From assembly GCA_021613375.1 (NCBI GenBank), contig JAJQXZ010000045.1, positions 18,211 through 82,210 on the forward strand: a DNA stretch of 64,000 bases. The letters run 5' to 3'. A program made the position numbers and the translations under genes. Origin of the DNA: Megaleporinus macrocephalus. Lineage: Eukaryota > Chordata > Actinopteri > Characiformes > Anostomidae. Positions 12,703 through 53,392 of the stretch are shown here, piece after piece. The notes beneath the pieces were generated by a model. It ran no database searches, had not been told where the DNA came from, and was given only the letters and a program-made list of their open reading frames with translations. Each line of letters begins with the position of its first letter. Position 1 is the stretch's first letter.

Positions 12703-14741
12703 GAGAAAACTCAGACAACACAGCCCCCCAAGTGGACGAGAGGAACAACAGCAGCGTCCAGAGGGGGAAGAGAAAGACCAGCAGCTGCAGCAGCCAGCCA
12801 CCCAGAAAGAGAAGGAGGACAGAGGAGGAGAAGGAGAGAGAGGAGGAAGAGCAGCAGGTTGTAACAACCTCTGCTGAGAGTGAGGACCAGGAAAGGAGCT
12901 CCTGCGAGTCGGCACGCTCTGTGTCCAGTGAGGATGTTTCATCTGAGGAGCAGAGCAGTGCCACCGTCAGTGAAGCTGAGGAGTCGACTCTCTCTGAAGA
13001 TACGCTGGAGGAGAAGTACGTGCAGCAGGAACATCTGGGTGGAGGAGGATTTGGTTCTGTGTACGCTGGCTACCGTAGAGACGACCTGCTACCGGTAATT
13101 AACACACACACACACACACACTTCTACAACTGTTTATCAACACTGAGAGAAACAAAGACCACCTCAATACGGGGGCAGTAGAAAGCAGTGGTCAGTCATT
13201 GGTTCAGAATCATTCAGCAGTAATGAGTTTAATCCAGATTTACTTTATCTTGCAGGTGGCTATCAAACACATCCCCATTCACAAAGTGGAAAGAACTACT
13301 TTGGTGAGTGTGAACACACACACACACACACACACACTATTCTGTTATCAGTAGTGTGGAGCTTGTGTAGATATGAAAATGATTAAGATTGTATGGGAGG
13401 AACAAAAGATAAAAAAATGAACAACAGGGTAGGAGTGTGCTGAAGTCTGGAGGAGCACTATGTGGAACAGTGTGTTCTGTTATAGGTTGAGGATGGAGTA
13501 GAGGAGGATTGGCCACTGGAAGTGGTTCTGATGGCGATGGCGGATGAGGCTGGAGGGGCTTCTGTGGCTCTGCTGGACTGGTGCGAGCTGGAGGACGAGC
13601 TGGTCATAGTGATGGAGCGGCCGGTGCCCTCCATGGACCTGTTCAAGTACCTCGATTGTAAAGGAGGTTGCTTGGAGGAGGAGGAAGCCAAGGTGAGAGA
13701 CAGTGCTGCTGAAAAACACTCCCTCACCTACTGAGCCTGGATTTCCCCCTTTAACCCCAAACAGAGTACAAGTATGTATGTAAAAGTTAGTTTAAGCAGC
13801 CAATACACACAGTACAGAAGTCCATCATGCAGGAATACAGTAAGGAGCTTTATACACAGTGAGCAGATCTAATCTATATAGAAATATCAGATCATATATT
13901 TATAAACATAGTAAACAATCAGTTTTCTCTGAGAACTCTTTCTCTTTATGAGCTCCTGCATGTCTCTCCACTGTAGCTTCATCCTCTCTTTCATACTGTA
14001 GGTCATCCTGAGGCAGCTGGTGGAGGGGATGATTGCCATCCACTCTAAAGGGGTCTTGCACCGCGACATTAAACCAGGAAACATCCTGGTACAGATGGAC
14101 CCTGAGGGTCCTCGTGTGCGAGTGCTGGACTTTGGCTGTGGCTGCTTCTTGAAGGAAGACCCCCACAGCAGCTACTGTGGATTCGGAGGTTTGATTCTCA
14201 TAAAGCAGCTATTTAAATCTAGTACATTAGTCATAACGGACCAATAATGATGTAGTTATCATGTTAGACCCTCTAAACGTCCACACGTGTCCACTCACTG
14301 TGATTGTTGTACTTTAAAGGAACACTGTACTACAGTCCTCCTGAGTGGTTCCTGCAGGGGTCCATCCAGGCTGATCCGTCCACAGTGTGGCAGATCGGAG
14401 TCGTGCTGTACAACATGCTCACTGGATTGGTGCCCTTTAGGTCCTCCAGAGGAATCATTTATGATTATTTCTACAGACCAGCTTACCTGTCCCCAGGTAA
14501 GTGTCCACTCACAACGGTCTGCTGAGTCATACTTGTTCAAAAGCACCTTCACCCAGAGAGGACTCTCTCTCTCTTTCTCACACACACACACACACACACA
14601 CACAAAATAACACACAGTTTTGACCAAACCTGTTTCTGTGTCTCTGCAGAGGCTGGGGGTCTGCTAAAGAGCTGTCTGGACAAGCAGCCTCAGAGAAGGC
14701 CCTCTCTCCGTGACATCCTGCAGCACCCCTGGTTGCAGTGA
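12703..14741 (+). CDS. PIM-like serine/threonine protein kinase (5' exon missing)
   Basis: Six coding exons join without a phase conflict: 12703-13094, 13256-13303, 13486-13692, 14002-14188, 14320-14496 and 14650-14741, ending HPWLQ and TGA. The first part is a basic then acidic, Ser/Glu-rich leader of about 100 residues. The kinase domain then shows a glycine loop ([12 protein letters not shown], about 13037-13070), the ATP-binding lysine in VAIK (13256-13267), the hinge [13 protein letters not shown], the catalytic loop HRDIKPGN (14059), DFG (14128) and the activation end YYSPPEW. The SPPEW motif and the short compact domain are PIM hallmarks. PIM kinases are constitutively active cytosolic or nuclear kinases, and teleosts carry large expansions of PIM-like genes. 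Every catalytic residue is present, so activity is plausible. The start exon was not found. (CA)n tracts lie in introns 1, 2 and 5. Confidence 0.9.
13316..13338. repeat. (CA)n microsatellite in intron 2 of the PIM-like gene
   Basis: This run immediately follows the exon 2 donor. Its counterpart in the inverted copy is the (GT)n at 40632-40664, exactly where that copy stops and the SET-recombinase element begins. Confidence 0.9.
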
Positions 14742-38999: not shown

Positions 39000-39367
<368 letters not shown>

Positions 39368-40631
39368 TTAAGCACTCCTCTCTGGGTGAAGGTGCTTCTG
39401 AACAAGTACATGAACAAGTGTGACTCTGCAGAATGTTGTGTGTGGACACTTACCTGGGGACAGGTGAGCTGGTCTGTAGAAATCATTGGAAACGATTTCT
39501 GTGGAGAACCTAAAGGGCACCAATCCAGTGAGCATGTTGTACAGCACGACTCTGATCTGCCACACTGTGGACGGCTCAGCCTGGATGGACCCCTGCAGGA
39601 ACCACTCAGGAGGACTGTAGTACAGTGTTCCTTTAAAGTACAACAATCACAGTGAGTGGACACGTGTGGACGTTTAGAGGGTCTAACATGATAACTACAT
39701 CATTAGTGGTCCGTTATGACTAATGTACTAGATTTAAATAGCTGCTTTATGAGAATCAAACCTCCGAATCCACAGTAGCTGCTGTGGGGGTCTTCCTTCA
39801 AGAAGCAGCCACAGCCGAAGTCCAGCACGAGGACCCTCAGGGTCCATCTGTACCAGGATGTTTTCTGGTTTTAAGTCGAGGTGCAGGACCCCTTTAGAGT
39901 GGATGGAGATCATTCCCTCCACCAGCTGCCTCAGGATGACCTACAGTATGAAAGAGAGGATGAAGCTACAGTGGAGAGACATGCAGGAGCTCATAAAGAG
40001 AAAGAGTCAGAGAAAACTGATTGTTTACTATGTTTATAAATATATGATCTGATATTTCTATATAGATTAGATCTGATCACTGTGTATAAAGCTCCTTACT
40101 GTATTCCTGCATGATGGACTTCTGTACTGTGTGTATTGGCTGCTTAAACTAACTGCAGGTGTCACTTGTACATACATACTTGTAGTCTGTTTGGGGTTAA
40201 AGGGGGAAACTGTGTTTGTGGATCTGAAATGAAATCCAGGCTCAGTAGGTGAGGGAGTGTTTTTCAGACCTTGGCTTCCTCCTCCTAACCCTCCTCCAAG
40301 CAACCTCCTTTGCTATCGAGGTACTTGAACAGGTCCATGGAGGTCACTGGCCGCTCCATCACTATGACCAGCTCGTCCTCCAGCTCGTAATTGTCCAGCA
40401 GTGCAACAGAAACCCCTTCAGCCTCACCCACCATCTCCATCAGCACCATTTCCAGTGGCCAATCCTTCTCTTCTCCATCCACAACCTATAACAGAACACA
40501 CTGTTCCACATAGTGCTCCTCCAGACTTCAGCACACTCCTACCCTGTTGTTATTTTTTATACTTTGTTCCTCCCATACAATCTTATTCAGTTTCATCTCT
40601 ACACAAGCTCCACACTACTGATAACAGAATA

Positions 40632-40664
40632 GTGTGTGTGTGTGTGTGTGTGTGGGTGTGTGTG
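40632..40664. repeat. (GT)n microsatellite at the left border of the SET-recombinase element
   Basis: This corresponds to the (CA)n of intron 2 in the intact PIM-like gene. The next base starts TTCTTGTAATTA of the element. Confidence 0.9.
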
Positions 40665-40692
40665 TTCTTGTAATTACCCTTTCATGGGGACA
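40665..40692 (+). repeat. left 28-bp inverted terminal repeat
   Basis: TTCTTGTAATTA, a 7-base variable middle, then ATGGGGACA. It pairs with 53292-53319. Confidence 0.8.
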
Positions 40693-40934
40693 TTGTCATG
40701 TTTACACACCAACCGTATGGGGTCACAAAACCTTATGGGGACCATGGACCCCCTGAAGCAGGTTCAGGACGCTGTAACTAAGTGCCTCTGGATTTTTTTT
40801 AAATTGGCCCACCATGACGGATTGGACCAGAAGTGTGTGTGTGAAGCCGTGCTCCGCAGCAGCCCTGTAGGCCGGAGCGCGAATTGCAAGCTTCAGAGCC
40901 ACACCCGCGCGCCTAACACACTCTGCAAGTCTAA

Positions 40935-41015
40935 TTTATGCAAATGAGCCCTGAGGGGACCCGTGCGCAAGCGCAGTAGTAGTTTGTGGCTCTCGCTTTA
41001 GGGAACATTCTCCAA
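40935..41015 (+). promoter_or_regulatory. probable promoter with octamer and NRF1-type sites
   Basis: An octamer ATGCAAAT lies at 40938-40945 and an NRF1-like palindrome TGCGCAAGCGCA at 40964-40975. About 40 bp later comes a splice donor (CTCCAA followed by GTAAGT, exon end 41015). This CG-richer block inside the element fits a housekeeping or germline promoter for the gene downstream. Confidence 0.5.
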
Positions 41016-41424
41016 GTAAGTTTCCACCATGTGTTTAATAAACTTTAGTGATTTCCCAATGCTTCTAACATCTTTATATCTTTATAAAACTATTATTGAG
41101 TTCATTACAAAATTTACCACGTTGTCGCTCGTGGATAAGCGAGGTTTGGGAGGTTGGTCATACTAAGCTTTCAGTAAGTTAATATAAGTACTTTTGTGTG
41201 TGTGTCTAATATTTTCTACAAAAAGTGAGTTTCAGTCAGAGGTATGTGGTGTTTCAGAGAACGTGGATGCATGTTTGCGTTTGTAAAATGTATTTACATT
41301 ATATTTAAAAGGCTAAAATCAGTGAACGCAGCTAAACTATACAGTCATGCTGTTTAAAGCTTAAAATGGTGGGTGTAGTTTTTGGAGCTGCTCTCACGGA
41401 CCGTAAACACTGATACAGGAACCT

Positions 41425-41521
41425 GAAGAACTACAATTCCCATCACCGCCATAGAGTCCTCCTGGGTGTTGCGCAGGTGCCTCGGCTAATTAGTGTTTTC
41501 TTTCTCGGAGCGCAGTGAAAG
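41425..41521 (+). promoter_or_regulatory. second promoter-like block with ACTACAATTCCCA motif and donor
   Basis: ACTACAATTCCCAT at 41430-41443 matches the core of the ZNF143/THAP11 promoter motif. A donor follows at 41521 (AAAG followed by GTAAGAA). It may be an alternative first exon of the SET-recombinase gene. Confidence 0.45.
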
Positions 41522-42102
41522 GTAAGAAACACTCAAACTATTCTAACACTTTACTATTTACTCTTCTCTGATTTTATTTATGTGTTTAAAACGATTATAA
41601 AGGAGGTTCTGTACTAGTGGAGTGTTAGCTCATCATAAACAGCAGGACATTCACTTCACCTGGTTTCTCTATAAACACTTAGACTGAGCTGGACAGACAG
41701 CGGCTGAGTTTAAACATCTGGAGAATAAAGTTACTGAGATTAAACCAGTGTGTTGTATCTGAGTGCTGCTAACTGGCGCTAGCTAATTAAAACTCCAACA
41801 CCAGTGTAAACACGGAGCGGTTTGTGTTTAAAACGAGTTTTAACAGCTCCAAACTAAATTTATTACAAGTTCAGATTTACCGGTGTGATTGGTAACTATT
41901 AAAAGTCATATTTAGACGTTCAGCAGACACAGTCCTGCTACTGAAGCAATGCTAACCGTTAGCGTCCGATTGATCTACTCAGAACGAACTTTTTCTGAGT
42001 GACTTGTTAAAACAGGCAGCAGACAGTGACGTAGAGATACAGGATCATCACTGTAGAGCTAGATTACTTCACTCTGCTGACAGTGAAGCTTTAAATCTGA
42101 GA
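41522..42102. other. first intron sequence
   Basis: Non-coding DNA between the putative first exon and the minisatellite. No feature was seen. Confidence 0.4.
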
Positions 42103-42596
42103 GAACTGAGAGAACCAGAACAGCCAGTGTACCGTTTAACTGAGAGAACCAGAACAGACAGTGTACCGTTTAACTGAGAGAACCAGAACGGTCAGTGTAC
42201 CGTTTAACTGAGAGAACCAGAACGGCCAGTGTACCGTTTAACTGAGAGAACCAGAACGGCCAGTGTACCGTTTAACTGAGAGAACCAGAACGGCCAGTGT
42301 ACCGTTTAACTGAGAGAACCAGAACGGCCAGTGTACCGTTTAACTGAGAGAACCAGAACGGCCAGTGTACCGTTTAACTGAGAGAACCAGAACAGACAGT
42401 GTACCGTTTAACTGAGAGAACCAGAACGGCCAGTGTACCGTTTAACTGAGAGAACCAGAACGGCCAGTGTACCGTTTAACTGAGAGAACCAGAACGGTCA
42501 GTGTACCGTTTAACTGAGAGAACCAGAACAGTCAGTGTACCGTTTAACTGAGAGAACCAGAACAGACAGTGTACCGTTTAACTGAGAGAACCTACA
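42103..42596. repeat. 34-bp minisatellite, about 14 copies
   Basis: The unit ACTGAGAGAACCAGAACGGC continued by CAGTGTACCGTTTA is repeated head to tail with no spacers. Variants differ at ACGGCC, ACAGAC and ACGGTC. It sits in the first intron of the SET-recombinase gene. Confidence 0.97.
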
Positions 42597-42666
42597 GAAG
42601 GAATACTCTGTATACTTTTTTTAATCTATCACTGAATGTGTGAATCTAATGTTTCCTTCAGTCGTC

Positions 42667-42708
<42 letters not shown>

Positions 42709-42741
42709 GTAATAATAATAATAATAATAGTAATAATAATA
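42667..42741. repeat. (AAT)n microsatellite
   Basis: About 25 AAT triplets with a few AGT interruptions. Confidence 0.97.
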
Positions 42742-43130
42742 AGGGAGATGTTTTCTGTTTAAAAAGCTGAAGTTTACTTTAAAGCTCTACCTTTTGTTAG
42801 CGTTTTAAAGAAATAGTATTAGAGGAGGAACTTTAGTAGATTGGCATGTCATGTAAGACAGCAGGTACATATTTATATGTATATTTGTGCATAAGATAAT
42901 CTTTATGTAAACAACCAGGGATCTATTTAATGCGTGAGCTCTGTATTTAAAGATGTAGTGGTGGTAATACTAATTGGTAATATTAATTACTAAGTGGTAA
43001 TATTAATTACTAATCAGTTTCACTGTTGCTTTTTCCATATAGTATTGCATTCTAATATTTATGTTTAGAATCTCTGTAATTAATATTATGTTATTTTACT
43101 TGGTTTAGATTTCACAGTAAGATCACATGA

Positions 43131-46100
43131 ATGACAGGAAAAATGCCTCGAAGAGTGAGCCCACTTCAAGATGCCATACATCATGTGATTGTAAAGAGTG
43201 ACAAAACAACAAAGCTTGAAGTGAAGTACATCAATCCCATGAAAGGTAGGATTCGGTTTATGGTTTATACATATAATAATTTGTCATTTCAAATCGGGAT
43301 TATCAACAACATAAGTCTATTCTGTATTTTGTCGGAACACCAGGTTCTCCAGGTTAGAGGTAGTCTAGCTGGTGTAGGTAGTCTCAGTCACTTTAGTATG
43401 TTTTGTTCTGCAAAAATCAAAAAAGGAAAAAGGGGAAACTTTGTGATGAAGCTAGTTTTACAGTGTGTAGTAGAGAGAACTAACAGACAGGTTCCTAAAT
43501 GGTCATTATGTAATGATCTAGATGTTGATTAAAAAGCTGAATATCAGCGTCAAAATGTATGTCTAGCACCATTTGTGATGGAATGTAAAAGACAAGAAGC
43601 CGGCTAATAGGAAGCTGAACTTTAGCATAATAAAAATAAACAGTAACAATCCTATCTGAAGTTTTATGTATGCAGCTACTGATCGCTACCGGATTATTTG
43701 TCATCAATGCAGGACTTTTCACCAGATTTGACCAAAAGTCACAAGAAGTAAATGATCCATCATAATAATAATGCATGTTTCTTACTCTAAATTAGGAGTG
43801 TTTAATTAGAGTCAGTAAGGTCCAGTTAGAGGAGATCTCCTCAGGCCGGTCCAGACAGTCATCATCTCTAACGTGTGTTCTGATTCAGTGGTGTATCCTG
43901 TTTACTGAAGTAGTCTAGTATCAGCATCTTATACCATCAGCTACTGAAACACCAACACACCACACATACTGTTCAGTATATTTCAGTATATTTACTGTTT
44001 AAATACTGAACTGAATTAATTATTTATAAACTAATAATAAATGTTTCTCACTTTAATAAAAACAAGAGCTACATAAAAAAAATAAATAAAAAAAAAACAC
44101 AGAATGATTTTAGTCTCTGTACCTTGCCTGTGTACGCGGATCCGGATCCAGACTGCGGTCCGCCTATTAGTGACCCCTGCTCTAAATACTCCTTCAGGAA
44201 AGAAATGTCGTTTGCAAACAGTGACTTTTCAGTTGGAAATCCTCATTAATGTAGTGAACGACAAAACTTGTCTATGGTTCCGCTGTCCGGCTGGACCACA
44301 TGTCTGTTGTAGCGGCATATTAGTCCACTTGCGACAGCTCGTACAACTCTTACACTTGTTGTACAACTCTGGGACGGCAGTTTATAAATGTAAAATATGT
44401 GTGTGACCGTGTTACTTATAGCATTCCAGATCTGGCGTTGCACCAGTCATGCAGAGCTTCATGATGGCGCTTTAAATGGTAAAACAGATTAGTCACATTG
44501 ACTCGTCTAGTGCAAGAACTGCAAGACACTTGACAAATTACATGCTTTTGGTCAACATCATCCTTTCTTTAGCCGAAATATTTCAGCTTCAGCTGTTGAC
44601 CTGTAAGAATGAGTGGATGTCTTACTTTCTAGTACACGTCACTCACTGCAAACCACAAAAAACATCAACTCCGTGAATCCACTACTGGTGCAAAATAAGT
44701 TACAATTGGGCAGTTGTAATCTTCCGCTGGCAGGTATTTTATGTAAAATAAGAACAGTGTGAATCTATTTCTTGTGTCAAGCAGCAAAAACTGTTTGCTT
44801 TATTTGCCTTAAGCGACATCCCATGTCCTGCAATGTGATTATTGAGCATGTGCACATCATGATGACGATAGGATACATCTTGCAGCCCTAGTTTCTTGTT
44901 AGAAAAGTTTTAGAAATTACATAATGACATCCAGTTAGTAGTTCATACACAAAAAGCATCTGGAGAAGACTATTTCAAGTGGTTTTATGGTTATGATCAA
45001 ACAAGTTATATTAATTGTTTAAATTACAATTTAAATTTTCTTGTTCTAAAGTAGCAAAATAGAAACTGCTTCTTTCACCTGTGCTTGGGATATTCTGGGA
45101 TAGTCAGTTGTGTTAATGTTTATTTTTAATCTGTTGGTTTATTAGTGTTTTTAAGTGGAACAATATCTTAATTTAAATATTTATCAAGCAATAGATTAAT
45201 TAAACTTTAGAGTTGAAAGTACATTGTTGATCCTTATTTACAAAGTAACTGAGCAGTGTTTTTTAATTTTTTGCAGGTTGTGGTGTCTTTGCTCTGGCAC
45301 CATTTTACAAGGGAGATTTTGTGGTTGAGTACAGGGGAGATAGGATTGATTTAAGGCAATCTCAGCGAAGAAGGCGACTCTACCACAGTCTTTGCACTGT
45401 GTTCATGTTTGACTTCAAATGGAAGGGGAAAATGTGGTGGTAAGTTATTAGTTTCATTAGTAGATTTCAAATCGACTGAACCCATGTTATATATAAAACT
45501 ACCACAAAAAGTAAGGAAATTTGTGCTTGGTAGATGATTTCTTAGTTGATGTTTCTTGGCAATAAATCTTATACCTTTGGAAAGCCTGTTAACTTCCATT
45601 TTAAATGGTGCCACATTTGTAAGGAACATGCATTTGTGGGATGAGAAGTAGAGCTAAGTATGTGGGTTGCATCAATGAAAAAATTGCCAAATCTTCTCTG
45701 CCATTGCCAAACAGCTTATTTTGCTGTTGCTATTGACACTTGTTTGGAGCTTCTGGTACCCCCAGGTACCTGATGATGCATTTTAGTACCATAGGCTGTC
45801 TTCTACAGATTTGCAGTCAAGGTTTGCAGGTTGATATGGCCGAGGCTCTCTGCCCCGACAGTCCGGAACAGACTGCATGCAGCCAATCTCCAGTCTCATC
45901 GGGCTACCAGGAGGCTGCTCTTCACCATCAGGCCTGTTTGGGCTGGTGTCAGCAACATGTGCACTGAAGTCTGAACATATGGAGGAACATTTTGTTCAGC
46001 GATGAGTTCAAATGGAAGTTGGATTATAGGGTCAAAGTTTGGAAAAGACGCGAAGAACACTATGCTTGTTGCTGCACCGATAGAGTAACATATTTTGGTG

Positions 46101-49100
46101 GAGGCAGCATGATGGTGTGGGACGGCATCACTCTCACTGGAAAAACAAGGCTTGTCATCATTGGAGGCAATCTCCGTTAAGATAAAAATCTGCAACCAGT
46201 GGCAATCCCAATCCCAATTGTTTCTTAGCTGTTTGGCAGAGAGGATTTAGCAACTTTCATGGTTGCAACCCACAAATGCATATTCCTTACAAATGTGGCA
46301 CCATTCAAAAGGGAAATTACAGACTTTCCAACAATAGCCTTTTTTACAACAAAGAAATAATCTACCAAACACAAATTTCCTTACTTTTTGTGCTGTGTTT
46401 ATATACATGTTTCTTTTTTACAAAGTATTGATGCTGCAAAAGAAGACGGCTCATTTGGGAGGTTGGTCAATGATGACCACAGACATCCGAAGATAAAGAT
46501 GAAGATGATTGAGGTAGATGGAAGGCTACATCTCTGTCTCTTTGCCATAGAAGACATAAAAGAAAAAGATGAAATTACCTATGATTATGGAGGGAATGAC
46601 TGGCCATGGCGAAAGAAGGTATGTAGTTATGTATAAAAACGTTGCAATGTTTTGTTCTTTAACTAACTAAAAAATGTTTAAAGTGATTAAAAGTAAAGAA
46701 CAGCACTACCCCTTGATGTTTTTAGGATACAGTTTCTATGAACACCGAAGATGGTGAGCAACCTTCCCAGTCTGGACCAGTACAGCCTAATGGTTCCTCA
46801 GCAAGTAATCAGGTAAGTCTATTACAGTCTAACACAAGTGTTTCTTACACTCCATTTGAAATTTAGCTTACTGTATGACCTACTTATCAGTGTAAACTTA
46901 CAAATTCCAAGTTTTGTACTATTACGATGTGAGATATGAGAATATCAAAGTTCCAAAACATTATTTTTTGTGTGTTTTCTTTATTGTATTTGTTGACCTC
47001 ACGGAGTCCCCACAACACAGGTTTTAGTCAGATGTGTGTAAACGAGATCTATGCTGGACAGATGCTCTCAGTTAGGATAGTGTCCCCACGGGTCACAGGG
47101 TATTAAAATGTGTTAAGTGTCCTCATGAAGTATGTTTAAGCATTAACGTACTGAAACACTGACCTTTTGAGTACTCTGATTGAGGGGTGTCAACTGTATA
47201 AAAAAATACACATGTATTTCAGTGCATGCTAATTATTTGTAATTATTTGTAATTGACTAAATATGCCATGTTATATAACAGATTATTGAGGATATGGTTT
47301 CTGAGATGAACACCAAAGATGATGAGCAACCTTCCCAGTCTGGACCAGTACTGCCTACTGGTTCCTCAGCAATGAATCAGGTAAGTCTATCACAGTCTTT
47401 CACAAGTGTTTCTTACACTCCAGTTGAAATTTAGCTTACTTTATCAGTGTAAACTTACAAATTCCAAGTTTTGTACTATTACAATGTGAGATATGAGAAT
47501 ATCAAAGTGGAAAAGCATTTCTTGAGCAAAGTTTGAAGTTCCAAAACATTATTTTTTGTGTGTTTTCTTTATTGTTGACCTCACGGAGTCCCCACAACAC
47601 AGGTTTTAGTCAGATGTGTGTAAATGAGATATATTCTGGACAGATGCTCTCAGTTAGGATAGTGTCCCCACGAGTCACAGGGTATTAAAATGTGTTACGT
47701 AAAAGACATAAAGGGAAGATTTGAGAGAGCTCTAAAATTCAATGGGGATCAAAATTAGGTTTCTAAATTTGAGGTTAAATTACTGCTAATTTAAGAGATT
47801 TTGGGATATAGCCACATCTAATTTGACAGGTCTGGTAGGTTAGCAATAAAGGTGCTAGGTCTGAGATCTGAGACTGTTGAGGTTTGAGGAGGAACCGTTA
47901 CATGATCTACATGATATTATTGCTAAAGTATTTACTCACTCACACTGTGTGTGATAGGACGCCACCTGTGCAACAAGTCCAGTCGTGAAATTTCCTCAAT
48001 ACTAAATATTCCCCAGTCGACTGTCAGTGGTGTTATAACAAAGTCTAAGCGATTGGTTGCCTGGTCGCTCCTGGTCCTGTCTAAATTCTGGATAGATTTA
48101 TAATATAACATTTGTGCTACTATGAACAGGATTTGTTTTTATGTTGAAGAGTTCATTGAAAGACACTGATGAAGAGGATGTACATGTACCAAGATTACGG
48201 AGAACTAAAAGTGTTGCAGTAAGTGTTTCCTATCAATTCTAAAAGAGACAAAACAATTCATAAATTGAAACCTTTACATTTAAAAATGTAATAGTTATTT
48301 TATAGATTTTTTTAGATTAGAGGTTTATTTCCTGAAGAGTCAGATGAGCTGTTTGATTCCACCCCAGACAGTGAGGAGGAGTACATTCCTAACTCTAGAG
48401 ACAAAGAGAGTAGTTCAGACAGTAGTATCTCCCTTAAACCCCTGAAACGGAGCCTTCAGTCTCTCATAGATGAAGCCTTCCCTTGTAATCCTGTCCCTGA
48501 TAGCACATCATCAGGTGTCATGAATGTAACAGAGGCAAGAGAGCATGAAGTCAGCTTAAGCAACAAGAAGGGACAATATTTGTTAATGCTGTCAAAAGAA
48601 AATGTGATGGTCGTAGAGTATATGACAAGTTTGCACATAATGCCTCTGTGCTTAAAACAGGAAAGGGAGAACTGGTTCCACCGAAGAAAGCAGAAGGCAC
48701 TGACTTCATGCATTGTGCATACTGCCAAGGGTTATTTACCAGGAGTGTTCTTTGGCGACACATGAAGGTCTGTAAACTAGGCCCTGAAGATTGTGATCCA
48801 AAACCTGGAAAAAAACGCGTTCAGTCTCTCTGTGCGTTCACACAGCCTGTACCATCACACATAAGCAGAGCACTTTGGAAGACTTTAAGTCTCATTAATG
48901 CAGATGAAATCACAGCTACTGTCAGAAATGATAGCTGCAGCATTCAGCTGGGAGAGCATTTGCTTAATAAACGTGGATCAACTGCCAAGAATGAGGCATG
49001 CGTACGACAGAAGTTGCGAGAACTAGGAAAACTACTGATCACTGGCAAAAAAGTTGCATCTCTGAAGACAATGGAAGATTTGATAGATCCACAAAACTAC

Positions 49101-52100
49101 ATCAAAATGATTCAAGCTGTCAGACACACATGTGGATATGATAGTGATTCCAACACATACAAATATCCTTCTCTAGCAAAGAAACTTGGAATAAGCCTAA
49201 TGAAGCTCAGCAAACTTGTAAAAGCCAAAGCTTTGATTGCAAAAGACCACTGTTCAGCACAGAAGCTCAGTCATTTTCAGGAAATACATAAAGAACGGTG
49301 GTGTGAATTGATCTCTGCAACAGCAGCACAAAATCTTGAGGAGTCGAAGTGGAATGCCCCCACAATGTTGCCTTTTACGGAAGATGTGCAAAAACTTCAT
49401 ACATTCCTCAATAAAATGCAAGATGAATGCATCAGGCAGTTATCAACAGAGCCGATGACTAAGTACTGGTCAGAGCTTGCAATGGTTGCTTTGACTCAGA
49501 TCATCCTCTTTAACCGCCGCAGAGAGGGAGAGGTATCAAGTATGCTTCCTTCTGCATTCTTATCCAGGGACACCAGTGATCCACATGGTGATATAGATTA
49601 TGCCCTCTCAGAAGTTGAGAAGAAACTGTGCAGTCACTTTTCCAGAATTGTGATCAGAGGAAAAAGAGGAAGACCAGTTCCTATTCTGCTGACTCCCAAA
49701 ATGCTGAATGCGTTAGAGTTGCTGGTGAAGAACAGGGAGACTTGTGGTGAGCTGAAAGACAATGTATATCTGTTTGCTCGGCCATCAGCAATGTCACATT
49801 ACAGAGGCTTAGATTGTATCCGCAGCTTTGCAAAGTCTTGTGATGCACGTAATCCTGATGCACTGACGTCCACAAAACTGAGGAAGCATGCTGCCACTCT
49901 TTCTACTGTTCTAAACCTGAAGGACACAGACATGGATCAGTTAGCAAACTTCCTGGGGCATGACATAAGAATTCACAGGGAATACTACCGGCTTCCTGAA
50001 AAGACCCTCCAGCTTGCAAAAGTCAGCAAAGTTCTTATGGCCCTAGAACAAGGGAGACTTGGGGACTTCAAAGGCAAGAATTTGGATGAGATCAATATTG
50101 GTCCAGATGGTAAATAACTCTTTTTCATTTTTTATGCAGTCAATAATTCACTCTTCTACACAACACACATCAGTGTAAATGTTTTAATGTTGCGATCTGT
50201 GAGATTTATTTATTGATTTACTCTTCAATAAATTTTGCAGAGGAGATTGAGCTAATGGATGATGATGAAGAACAAAATGAGGAAGAAACACATGAAGAAC
50301 TTGAAGGTATGTAATTTTAGATTTTGATTATCTCAGCAAAATAGTGTGGCATTTCATTGACTAGTTAAACAACTGTTCTTGATTAATGGGATTAATGAGT
50401 GAATCTGATGTATCTTTGGTGTGTACAGCACATAAATAGCAATTAAAGTCATTATATACTGGCATGATGCAAACTGTTCCAGTGATACTCTTCTTTTTAT
50501 TTGTGGGTGTTCAGCTCTTTACCTAGAGAGCTGGTACCCAGACCATTTTGATTATTCCCCAAACTCAAGCACTGTTGACATCTGTTGAAAAAATAAGCTC
50601 ATCAAATATACAGAATACCTTTGCCCTATGCAGTTTATTGTTATGAATGTTTTAATATTTTTTAAAGATTTAATACTTTAATACATTTTTAAACAAACAT
50701 ATAGGTAACTCCTATTGTAGAGCATGTTTTTTAATTTAATGTAATGCTGATTGATAAATTTTTCACCAGAAGCAACACAGGAGGAATCACCAGAAGCAAT
50801 GCAGTTATCACCGCTTGACACTACAGTTATGTCCCTGCCAGAGAGGAAGAATTCCAGTCAGAGACCTTCCGTTCAAGGTAATACTATAAGTTAATCTGTC
50901 ATTAACTTAATCTGCCAGGCAGTACAAAGTAAGGTTAAGGTTACATAGTTTAATTTATTGTTGTAGGTATGGAACATTGAAACAAATTTGCCCTCATTCA
51001 TTGTGTTTTTTAAATATATTTTATGTATTGTCTTATTTGCTGCCCCCTTGGCCCCATTTGTTAATAGAAATGGACCACCATAGGACCACCTTTGACAATG
51101 AAACCTGTATGTTGTGCTGGGGTGGTGGGTTTTTTTATACACTTTGGGACACTGCAAGCATGAGTGGACCATCCTCTCAAAAAGTATCTAAGAGTGTCTC
51201 TGTGGTCTGGTTAGAAACTGATAAAGCGTTGCAGTGTGGCGAAGACACACTGTCTATCAACAGATAAGCTGTTAAAGTGCTATAGTATAAGTACAATCTC
51301 TAATTGTTCAACAACTGAAATGAAGGGTGTACACAACAACATTACTGTGCCTGATGCATGTTTACATGCCAATATCCTTGTTATGACAATAGCCAATTTA
51401 AGTTGAAAGGATAGCTACACAAAAAAACATGCATTAACATTGTGACTGAGAAATCTAAATCACTAGTAGCAACAATATCAGAACCAGTGAGAATATAGTG
51501 TTTTATTTTAAGCTTTGTTCACCTGGTGGCATGACAACCAACTGCTTGTGAATGTACCAAGGTATTAAAAAATTTAGCACTTTTTTGTTTGACACAAAAT
51601 TAAACAAAAGGATTTTTTTACACAAAATTAGAGCATTAGAACATAACTGAATTAAAGCAAAAACATGTTGACATATTTGCTAGCACATTTTTCACTGTCT
51701 TTGCTTAAAGGGTCCATGTCTTACATTGTTCTTGAGGTCTATTCATGATTTCCATTATTTTTATTTTTACCAGAATTGATCAACATTTTGTTAAATAGGA
51801 TTTTATGCATCTAAGATTAAAATATGATATCTGTTAAGATTTGATGTCATGTTTTGTGTCTCATTTAGAAGGCACTCAAAACTTTAGTGTAAATAGGTGG
51901 GACTAAACTGCCATAGGCTGTTTCCTGTAACAAAGAAATTGTGAATTAAAAACTGTCTATTTTTGTAGTATATTTTTCATATATTACCTTGAATACATAA
52001 TTTTAATATGGGCCATTTATTCCCCAATAATTTTTTGTGGTCAATCAATAAATAAGCTTGTCAGTAATTGCACATCTATATAGTGCATCTGTAATGTAAA

Positions 52101-52625
52101 TTTGGCACAAGTTGCTAAACTTGCAAGTTGTTATAAAAATAGAAGAAATTTCTCTGTTGCACTTACACTGACACATTTTGTTCCCTTGTCATTTCATTAG
52201 CTTTTTGCGAGTGATGGTTGTGAACAGCTCTAAGCTTGCATCTACATCAAGTAGAATGCCAGTGTAATGCCAACACTACGTTTTTTTTTTTATTATGTCT
52301 TATAAGTTGTACGTCATAATTGAAATAACTGAAGAGGTTCCTAATTTACTTTATAATTATACCTAATTAGTGTTTATATTGATGTTTTTCACATTTAGGT
52401 AAAACCTCAACACCAAAAAGAAGAAAAGCTTGGGAAGCAAAAGAGATCCAGGCTGTAGAAAGACACCTGAAAAACTTCATTACTTCATGTCGTGTCCCGG
52501 GAAAGGCTGCTTGTGAACAGTGCATAAGAGCTGAGCCTTCAACACTTAAACACAGAGACTGGCAGAGCGTCAAATTCTATGTTCACAATCGCATTGTGGC
52601 TTACAAAAGAGACATAACCCAGTAA
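43131..52625 (+). CDS. KMT5A-like SET domain fused to Crypton-like tyrosine recombinase
   Basis: Coding exons: 43131-43245, 45277-45439, 46426-46618, 46726-46812, 47282-47380, 48150-48218, 48316-50109, 50241-50306, 50770-50877 and 52399-52625, about 970 codons, with every splice phase agreeing. The ATG at 43131 follows an acceptor. Residues about 25-155 are a SET domain (KGCGVFALAPFYKGDFVVEY, WCIDA across a junction, FGRLVNDDH, EITYDYGGND) closest to KMT5A/SET8, the H4K20 monomethylase; the usual NHS of the AdoMet site reads NDD. An acidic linker and a Cys/His pair (CAYCQGLF...HMKVC) follow. The recombinase shows NRRREGEV, KLRKHAATLS, FLGHD and HREYYRLP, supplying Arg, Arg, His and Tyr. A basic C-terminal block ends in VHNRIVAYKRDITQ. 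Between 48545 and 48560 the frame must shift by one base. If expressed it would act in the nucleus. Confidence 0.75.
43246..45276. other. intron 1 of the SET-recombinase coding region
   Basis: 2.0 kb without coding support. Open frames at 43.5-44.7 kb are chance frames. The stretch at 43800-44160 carries GATCCGGATCCAGACTGCGG and may be an old hAT scrap. Confidence 0.4.
45503..46392 (+). mobile_element. Tc1/mariner relic nested in an intron
   Basis: Perfect 22-bp termini CACAAAAAGTAAGGAAATTT plus GT (left 45503, right 46392) bound an 890-bp unit. A broken transposase frame reads FSDEFKWKLDYRVKVWKRRE, then YFGGGSMMVWDGITLTG (about 46000-46140), including the second catalytic Asp of SDE. It has stops upstream and cannot be active. 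It lies wholly within the intron between the two SET-domain exons. Confidence 0.85.
46736..47700 (+). repeat. tandem duplication of an exon with its flanks
   Basis: About 0.57-kb period. Exon 46726-46812 (EDGEQPSQSGPVQPNGSSAS) and exon 47282-47380 (DDEQPSQSGPVLPTGSSAM) are copies, and the following introns share ACAAGTGTTTCTTACACTCC, TGACCTCACGGAGTCCCCAC and CACAGGGTATTAAAATGTGT. Both copies keep open frames and splice sites. Confidence 0.9.
47938..48064. mobile_element. Tc1-type fragment
   Basis: GGACGCCACCTGTGCAACAA, then GTCCAGTCGTGAAATTTCCT and CAGTCGACTGTCAGTGGTGT are consecutive pieces of a common fish Tc1 transposase. It is intronic. Confidence 0.75.
50878..52398. other. last intron of the SET-recombinase gene
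   Basis: 1.5 kb of AT-rich DNA. The frame at 50977-51267 has no domain or splice support. Confidence 0.5.
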
Positions 52626-53291
52626 TTGTAATTTAGTTTTCTGTAACTTTTGGATTAAAAAATCTAATTCTTTGCCTCGTCAAAAAAAAAAGTCTTTGGC
52701 AGTGTTCGCAATCAGGTTGTGGTTTGGAAAACCAAGCTGATAAGTTTGAATGTTTTCTTTTATTTTAAACTTAAGAGATGTTTATGTTGTTTATGTTGAA
52801 TTTAATTGTTTCTGGTACAGTGCAACAAAAACTGCTAATTTTTTTTTTACAAAAATGTAAACAAATATTTTGTTTCATATACTAGGTTTTCTAATTGTGA
52901 TTAGAGTTATTTAACTAAAATAAAAAAGAAGCAATTACTTTAACCTTGATGTCTTGTGTATTAACCTACAGAAAGAAAGTTACATTTGTAAATCCATGTT
53001 TTTAAATGGTGTCCCCATGATGTTCTCTAACTAACTGATTGGTGTGTATGCAAATTAGGTTCCTAGTGTTGTCCCCATTATGTTATATACTTTAGCTAAT
53101 TTCTGTATTATGCAAATTTTATCCAAAGTCCCCATTTGGCGTGATCATACCACACTGGGAAATTTATTTGCTTAAATCAAAAATCTGAGATGATTTTTAT
53201 GTTCCCTAATTTTAATTATGCATACATGATTTTTTTCACGTCTGTAGGACTACAGGAAAGTGGTGTCCCCGAACAGCATGTGCCTGACTAG
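52626..53291. other. 3' flank with GTCCCC subterminal repeats
   Basis: After the stop come AT-rich sequence and four GTCCCC motifs (about 53011, 53073, 53128, 53264), most followed by ATNATG or ATTTGG. Their spacing and orientation mirror TGGGGAC copies near the left end. No AATAAA close to the stop was confirmed. Confidence 0.6.
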
Positions 53292-53318
53292 TGTCCCCAT
53301 CAAGAGTTAATTACAAGA

Positions 53319-53319
<1 letters not shown>
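53292..53319 (-). repeat. right 28-bp inverted terminal repeat
   Basis: TGTCCCCAT, variable middle, TAATTACAAGAA; partner of 40665-40692. Confidence 0.8.
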
Positions 53320-53379
<60 letters not shown>

Positions 53380-53392
53380 TGTGTATTTGGTG
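53320..53392. repeat. (GT)n microsatellite at the right border
   Basis: About 35 GT dinucleotides with one GTAT interruption. What follows (TTTGGTGAAACATGGGTATT) is not the missing 5' half of the PIM-like copy. Confidence 0.95.

Follow-up and report, generated by a model that had tools for sequence, protein, structure and literature searches.

An apparently mobile element with inverted ends in GT-repeat DNA and a predicted SET–tyrosine recombinase gene in the fish Megaleporinus macrocephalus

CryptonA and CryptonI are described as animal DNA transposons with a tyrosine recombinase, that of CryptonA matching the family DUF3504, and enzymes of this class typically recognize 11–13-bp inverted repeats flanking a segment of 6–8 bp (PMC3212892, in the text available). 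CryptonV elements are likewise tyrosine-recombinase DNA transposons, and families specific to microsatellites are already on record among them (PMC8869645, in the text available, citing Kapitonov and Jurka, 2012). Here, we analyzed 64,000 bp of the M. macrocephalus genome (“the window”; G000:C37:18211-82210, on the 82-kb scaffold C37 of the 1.28-Gb assembly), which contain an element with inverted ends lying in GT-repeat DNA. Judged by its dispersed copies, the element is mobile, and according to an exon model and predicted proteins, a single gene in it fuses a SET domain to a tyrosine recombinase. With a probability of about 0.78, we consider it a Crypton-like DNA transposon encoding one spliced SET-recombinase protein and following a circle cycle, with an arm-(TG)n-arm junction, at GT repeats.

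The inverted ends at GT tracts, already pointed out in a preliminary description of the window, were confirmed. Compared inward, the two ends are identical at 24/28 positions in the window copy and at 26/28 in the copies on C1 and C5. The outermost base reads T..A in the window copy and G..C in C1 and C5, i.e., both arms were altered together, so that they stay matched. The ends and adjoining repeats are as follows.

40632..40664, + strand: left (GT)n target tract (tandem repeat search; TRF boundary 40665)
40665..40692, + strand: left inverted end (pairs perfectly with the right end over the outer 12 bp; 8 pattern matches)
42104..42592, + strand: 34-bp tandem array (14.4 units in the window copy)
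53292..53319, - strand: right inverted end (matched to the left end)
53320..53384, + strand: right (TG)n target tract (tandem repeat search)

Next to the left end, GGGGAC occurs at 40686, 40737 and 40955, mirrored by GTCCCC near the right end at 53011, 53071, 53128, 53265 and 53293. This mirrored arrangement had been described before and holds near the ends, but both motifs are also found elsewhere in the interior (GTCCCC at four places within 47006-47664, GGGGAC at 50061) and outside the element, with window totals of 16 and 12, respectively, as raw counts rather than a measure of enrichment. Element length is 12,655 bp in the window copy, 18,360 bp in C1 and 16,549 bp in C5, and the 34-bp array, which is far longer in C1 and C5, accounts for part of this range of 12.7–18.4 kb. 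Any terminal direct repeats are indistinguishable from the GT tract at the element ends.

Mobility is indicated by copies elsewhere in the assembly. The window copy repeats a copy at C23:8.18 Mb with 100% identity over 12,801 bp; scaffold C37 is probably a haplotig of this region, and both were counted as one locus. The left 136 bp gave nine assembly matches, namely the window, its C23 duplicate, C27, C14, C5, C1, C16, C21 and C23b, a partial left-end match on C23 at 11.9 Mb. A 33-base left-end pattern allowing ≤3 mismatches matched eight times in 1.28 Gb, each time at a copy known from the 136-bp search, and its reversed control not once; these left-end counts are lower bounds. In every fetched left-end copy, homology begins at the same base beside a GT-rich tract. 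Both ends are kept at four independent loci (window, C1, C5 and C23b), C23b being a diverged derivative of about 5 kb with most of its interior gone and a mutated right end. C10 has a right end against TGTGTG and gave no left-end match in the 136-bp search. C16 and C21 align to the element over its left part alone, their right end not being found in the stretches compared (that of C16 contains 998 N), and in C27 the stretch expected to hold the right end reads N.

A GT-rich tract adjoins the element end at 9/9 independent loci, which agrees with the microsatellite insertion of CryptonV, and by hand count it reads GT on the SET-to-recombinase strand at all nine; the tracts of C27 and C21 are imperfect GT/GA repeats. 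For comparison, in a counted sample of 210 kb, element sites included, perfect tracts of at least (GT)5 cover 0.36%. Comparing the left flanks of seven loci and the right flanks of four, with C23b excluded, we found the flanks mutually unrelated except for scattered repeats shared by C5 and C14. Several dispersed copies with the same ends thus exist, as the preliminary description had suggested looking for. As far as tested, the gene was found at many places with ends rather than, as considered there as a counter-indication, at one syntenic position without them. The other counter-indication, ends occurring mostly alone, is answered in part, as the left end was found solely with the element in a genome-wide count covering the left end alone.

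A candidate empty site in the window's own duplicate was rejected: the left flank aligns with 13315-14579 as far as the GT tract, beyond which the right flank does not carry on the match. The segments 13315-14579 and 39351-40654 are inverted duplicates (88.7%) holding kinase-like exon pieces, pim-like by eye, and their homology ends at a GT tract in both, in 39351-40654 on the element side.

The gene model was built on the C5 copy, where 12 exons, bounded by canonical splice sites and agreeing in phase, yield 1117 aa with no stop. In keeping with the earlier proposal of one enclosed gene in which a SET domain of KMT5A type is joined with a tyrosine recombinase, the predicted protein reads SET, linker exons (one tandemly repeated in phase), two zinc-finger-like CxxC..H motifs without Pfam match, recombinase and C-terminal helices. 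The C1 copy yields 1048 aa with no internal stop, exon E2 and maybe one repeat exon being missed by the exon patterns. Models of C27 and C14 are without exons A, E2 and E3, and their joined exons do not read through; exon D alone is open across 682 codons in C27 and contains stops in C14. The corresponding exons of the window copy are listed below.

43143..43245, + strand: exon A, start codon, N-terminus and SET start (0/103 bases differ from C5)
45277..45439, + strand: exon B, first half of SET (exon model)
46426..46618, + strand: exon C, second half of SET (Asn-Cys of the C5 copy is Lys-Ile in the window)
46726..46812, + strand: linker exon C1 (in the C5 and C1 copies, tandem in-phase repeats of a related exon follow)
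48150..48218, + strand: linker exon Cs (exon model)
48316..50109, + strand: exon D, zinc-finger-like motifs plus tyrosine recombinase (the window copy has a shortened, frameshifted version)
52399..52625, + strand: exon E3, conserved C-terminal region and stop codon (exon model)

With 1794 bp instead of 2041 bp, exon D of the window copy is out of frame, and the earlier impression of a self-contained element does not hold for this copy. Between the window and C5, SET exons diverge by 1.5%, the recombinase exon by 1.9% and non-coding sequence by 4.9%, i.e., the SET exons are under constraint. The copies contain introns, and apart from the frame of 682 codons none in C1 or C5 exceeds 160 codons, consistent with movement at the DNA level without reverse transcriptase. 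The 160-codon frame lies in a Tc1/mariner-like remnant (by eye), which in the window occupies 45737-46246, within the intron that precedes exon C; as C1 and C5 have similar frames, the fragment is older than the spread of these copies. Together with some 500 bp of intron, a linker exon (window 46721-47700; also in C1 and C5) forms tandem in-phase repeats whose number varies from copy to copy, and the medaka protein P0033 contains its own linker in many repeats.

Conservation was assessed on 33 of 120 listed homologues, hand-chosen for spread and all listed with SET. The Pfam family PF00856 matches the C5 protein (E 9.6e-19), exon C of the window (E 5.8e-8) and 33/33 aligned members, all of which had been picked from proteins listed with SET. 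KMT5A is the best solved-structure match of this domain, ranking first in Foldseek. For the recombinase, the catalytic residues R, K, R and H are invariant and Y is present in 32/33, as expected for a tyrosine recombinase. The predicted structure of the protein is good for the recombinase core alone; for residues 524-912, VIA-align returned XerH, XerA, topoisomerase IB and Cre, the two-domain fits having a large root-mean-square deviation and the catalytic part alone 3–4 Å. Many aligned stretches stop at Y891, which we take to lie near the catalytic tyrosine position of Cre, lambda Int and topoisomerase IB in their residue numbering. DUF3504 was matched neither in the C5 protein to E 10 nor in the 33 members within the 25 families displayed out of 34, a comparison whose filter drops weak matches and in which the presence of the model under that name was unchecked.

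Relatives are widespread. A search with words from the first 500 residues, SET included, scored 7983 candidates, 274 of which were found to be related proteins. The 120 listed belong to many teleosts and a single frog (Ranitomeya), and 116 of them carry SET. Using the recombinase only, with candidates of up to about 1190 aa, 1092 proteins were found, 41 of the 120 listed with SET. The exon order and linker motif recur in predicted proteins of different fishes, nearly all of the listed ones being named “uncharacterized” or “hypothetical,” and several homologues without PF00856 look like partial models. Alosa sapidissima has five loci, on contigs that all differ in length, with pairwise identities of 80.9–99.7% over aligned stretches and with differing repeat exons, and a sixth that is 41–49% identical to the others. 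The M. macrocephalus genome holds at least 33 recombinase loci (hand-grouped from 68 rows): at 16 of them SET is matched no more than 13 kb upstream in the same orientation, and these include diverged families on C2, C4, C9 and C11; the other 17, including an open one on C3, have no SET near among the matches listed.

Clusters of KMT5A-like SET exons, mostly with no recombinase match nearby, were seen at C25:8.30-8.83 Mb, with seven open frames of 184 aa, and at C23:8.08-8.71 Mb. The SET genes of zebrafish chromosome 4 (PMC11075544, in the text available) could be kin of the element's SET domain, as could setdm of a gibel carp microchromosome, known by its title alone.

Several observations weigh against the proposed reading. 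Within SET, the usual N-H of the AdoMet (S-adenosylmethionine) motif is replaced by N-D in 33/33 proteins, and in the recombinase the His of HxxR is Thr, i.e., one His is replaced in each domain while most catalytic positions are kept. Pfam Phage_integrase is matched weakly (E 0.057; only 2/33 members, best 0.12). The inverted ends, perfect over 12 bp, also depart from the absence of terminal inverted repeats (TIRs) that defines Cryptons, and with this one trait lacking the element is Crypton-like. For the SET domain we favor, with real doubt owing to the N-D replacement, an active lysine methyltransferase tethered to the element DNA. A catalytically dead domain serving as a nucleosome- or protein-binding module is a serious minority option, which this replacement supports and which has to account for the invariance of both Tyr of the YDYG motif and of the RG and EY residues in the 33 proteins, as well as for the constraint on the SET exons.

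The fusion itself could be an artefact of gene prediction, with SET and recombinase as separate transcription units traveling together: the fused database records are predictions by name, our model rests on genomic sequence, and some predicted proteins begin in the linker without SET. The in-phase, stop-free C5 model and the recurrence of order and linker motif among fishes, however, make this unlikely. We attach far less weight to a host family of SET-recombinase genes multiplied by segmental duplication, which the SET clusters on C25 and C23, five copies in a single region of C4 and the duplicated segments of the window would suit, because closely similar copies from different chromosomes agree exactly in their ends at GT tracts but have no flanks in common, and the five Alosa loci lie on contigs of different lengths. 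Equally improbable is a DDE-type or non-autonomous transposon that owns the ends and carries the gene as a passenger. TIRs are usual for DDE elements and a Tc1-like remnant is present, but the frame in this remnant is the longest one besides the recombinase frame, the left end turned up nowhere without the element, and the arms, the GT target and the uniform orientation are in keeping with a tyrosine recombinase.

For the Crypton-like transposon that we prefer, the recombinase would pair both inverted ends and excise the element as a circle, whose junction would consist of arm, (TG)n spacer and arm (arm GTCTTGTAATTA, first base T in the window copy). This junction could then recombine at a (GT)n microsatellite offering homology to the spacer; once integrated, the element would have one arm per end, read as a TIR, and GT on either side. 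A need for spacer homology would explain insertion in GT repeats, the single orientation, as a GT spacer is non-palindromic, and arms appearing as “TIRs.” The zinc-finger-like motifs may bind the subterminal GTCCCC repeats. SET, whose methyltransferase activity we infer together with mobilization by the recombinase, most likely methylates lysines of histone or recombinase at the element or target, which would keep the element expressed or the site open. More tentatively, with somewhat less than an even chance, these elements could form a vertebrate-wide group of autonomous transposons having their own histone methyltransferase fused to the recombinase, the GT microsatellite as attachment site and crossover spacer, ends acting as arms, and a SET domain marking element or target chromatin. 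If true, a mobile element brings a chromatin writer within its recombination enzyme, offers a concrete, testable model of how a eukaryotic tyrosine recombinase targets microsatellites and is a possible source of stray KMT5A-like SET genes in fishes.

The preliminary description had called a Crypton with TIRs and SET a new design. We found no description of a SET-recombinase transposon in the literature searched, Repbase and most subscription papers lying outside this search, and the SET fusion may in this respect be new; the TIRs need no new chemistry, since arms of 11–13 bp are typical of tyrosine recombinases, and microsatellite insertion has its precedent in CryptonV. SETMAR, whose SET chain is among the solved-structure matches, presumably resembles the element in having SET N-terminal to a transposition enzyme and differs in being one primate gene, domesticated, whose transposase is of the mariner (DDE) type. 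KMT5A/SETD8, the nearest solved SET domain, has neither the N-D replacement nor the fusion to a recombinase. CryptonV, compared by description only, is presented without mention of SET, and the title cited for it concerns cnidarians (PMC8869645, in the text available). CryptonA and CryptonI are reported to lack both terminal repeats and a C-terminal domain, whereas the oomycete CryptonS and CryptonF have short direct repeats at their ends and carry a C48 peptidase, which is not a SET domain but offers a precedent for an extra enzymatic domain (PMC3212892, in the text available).
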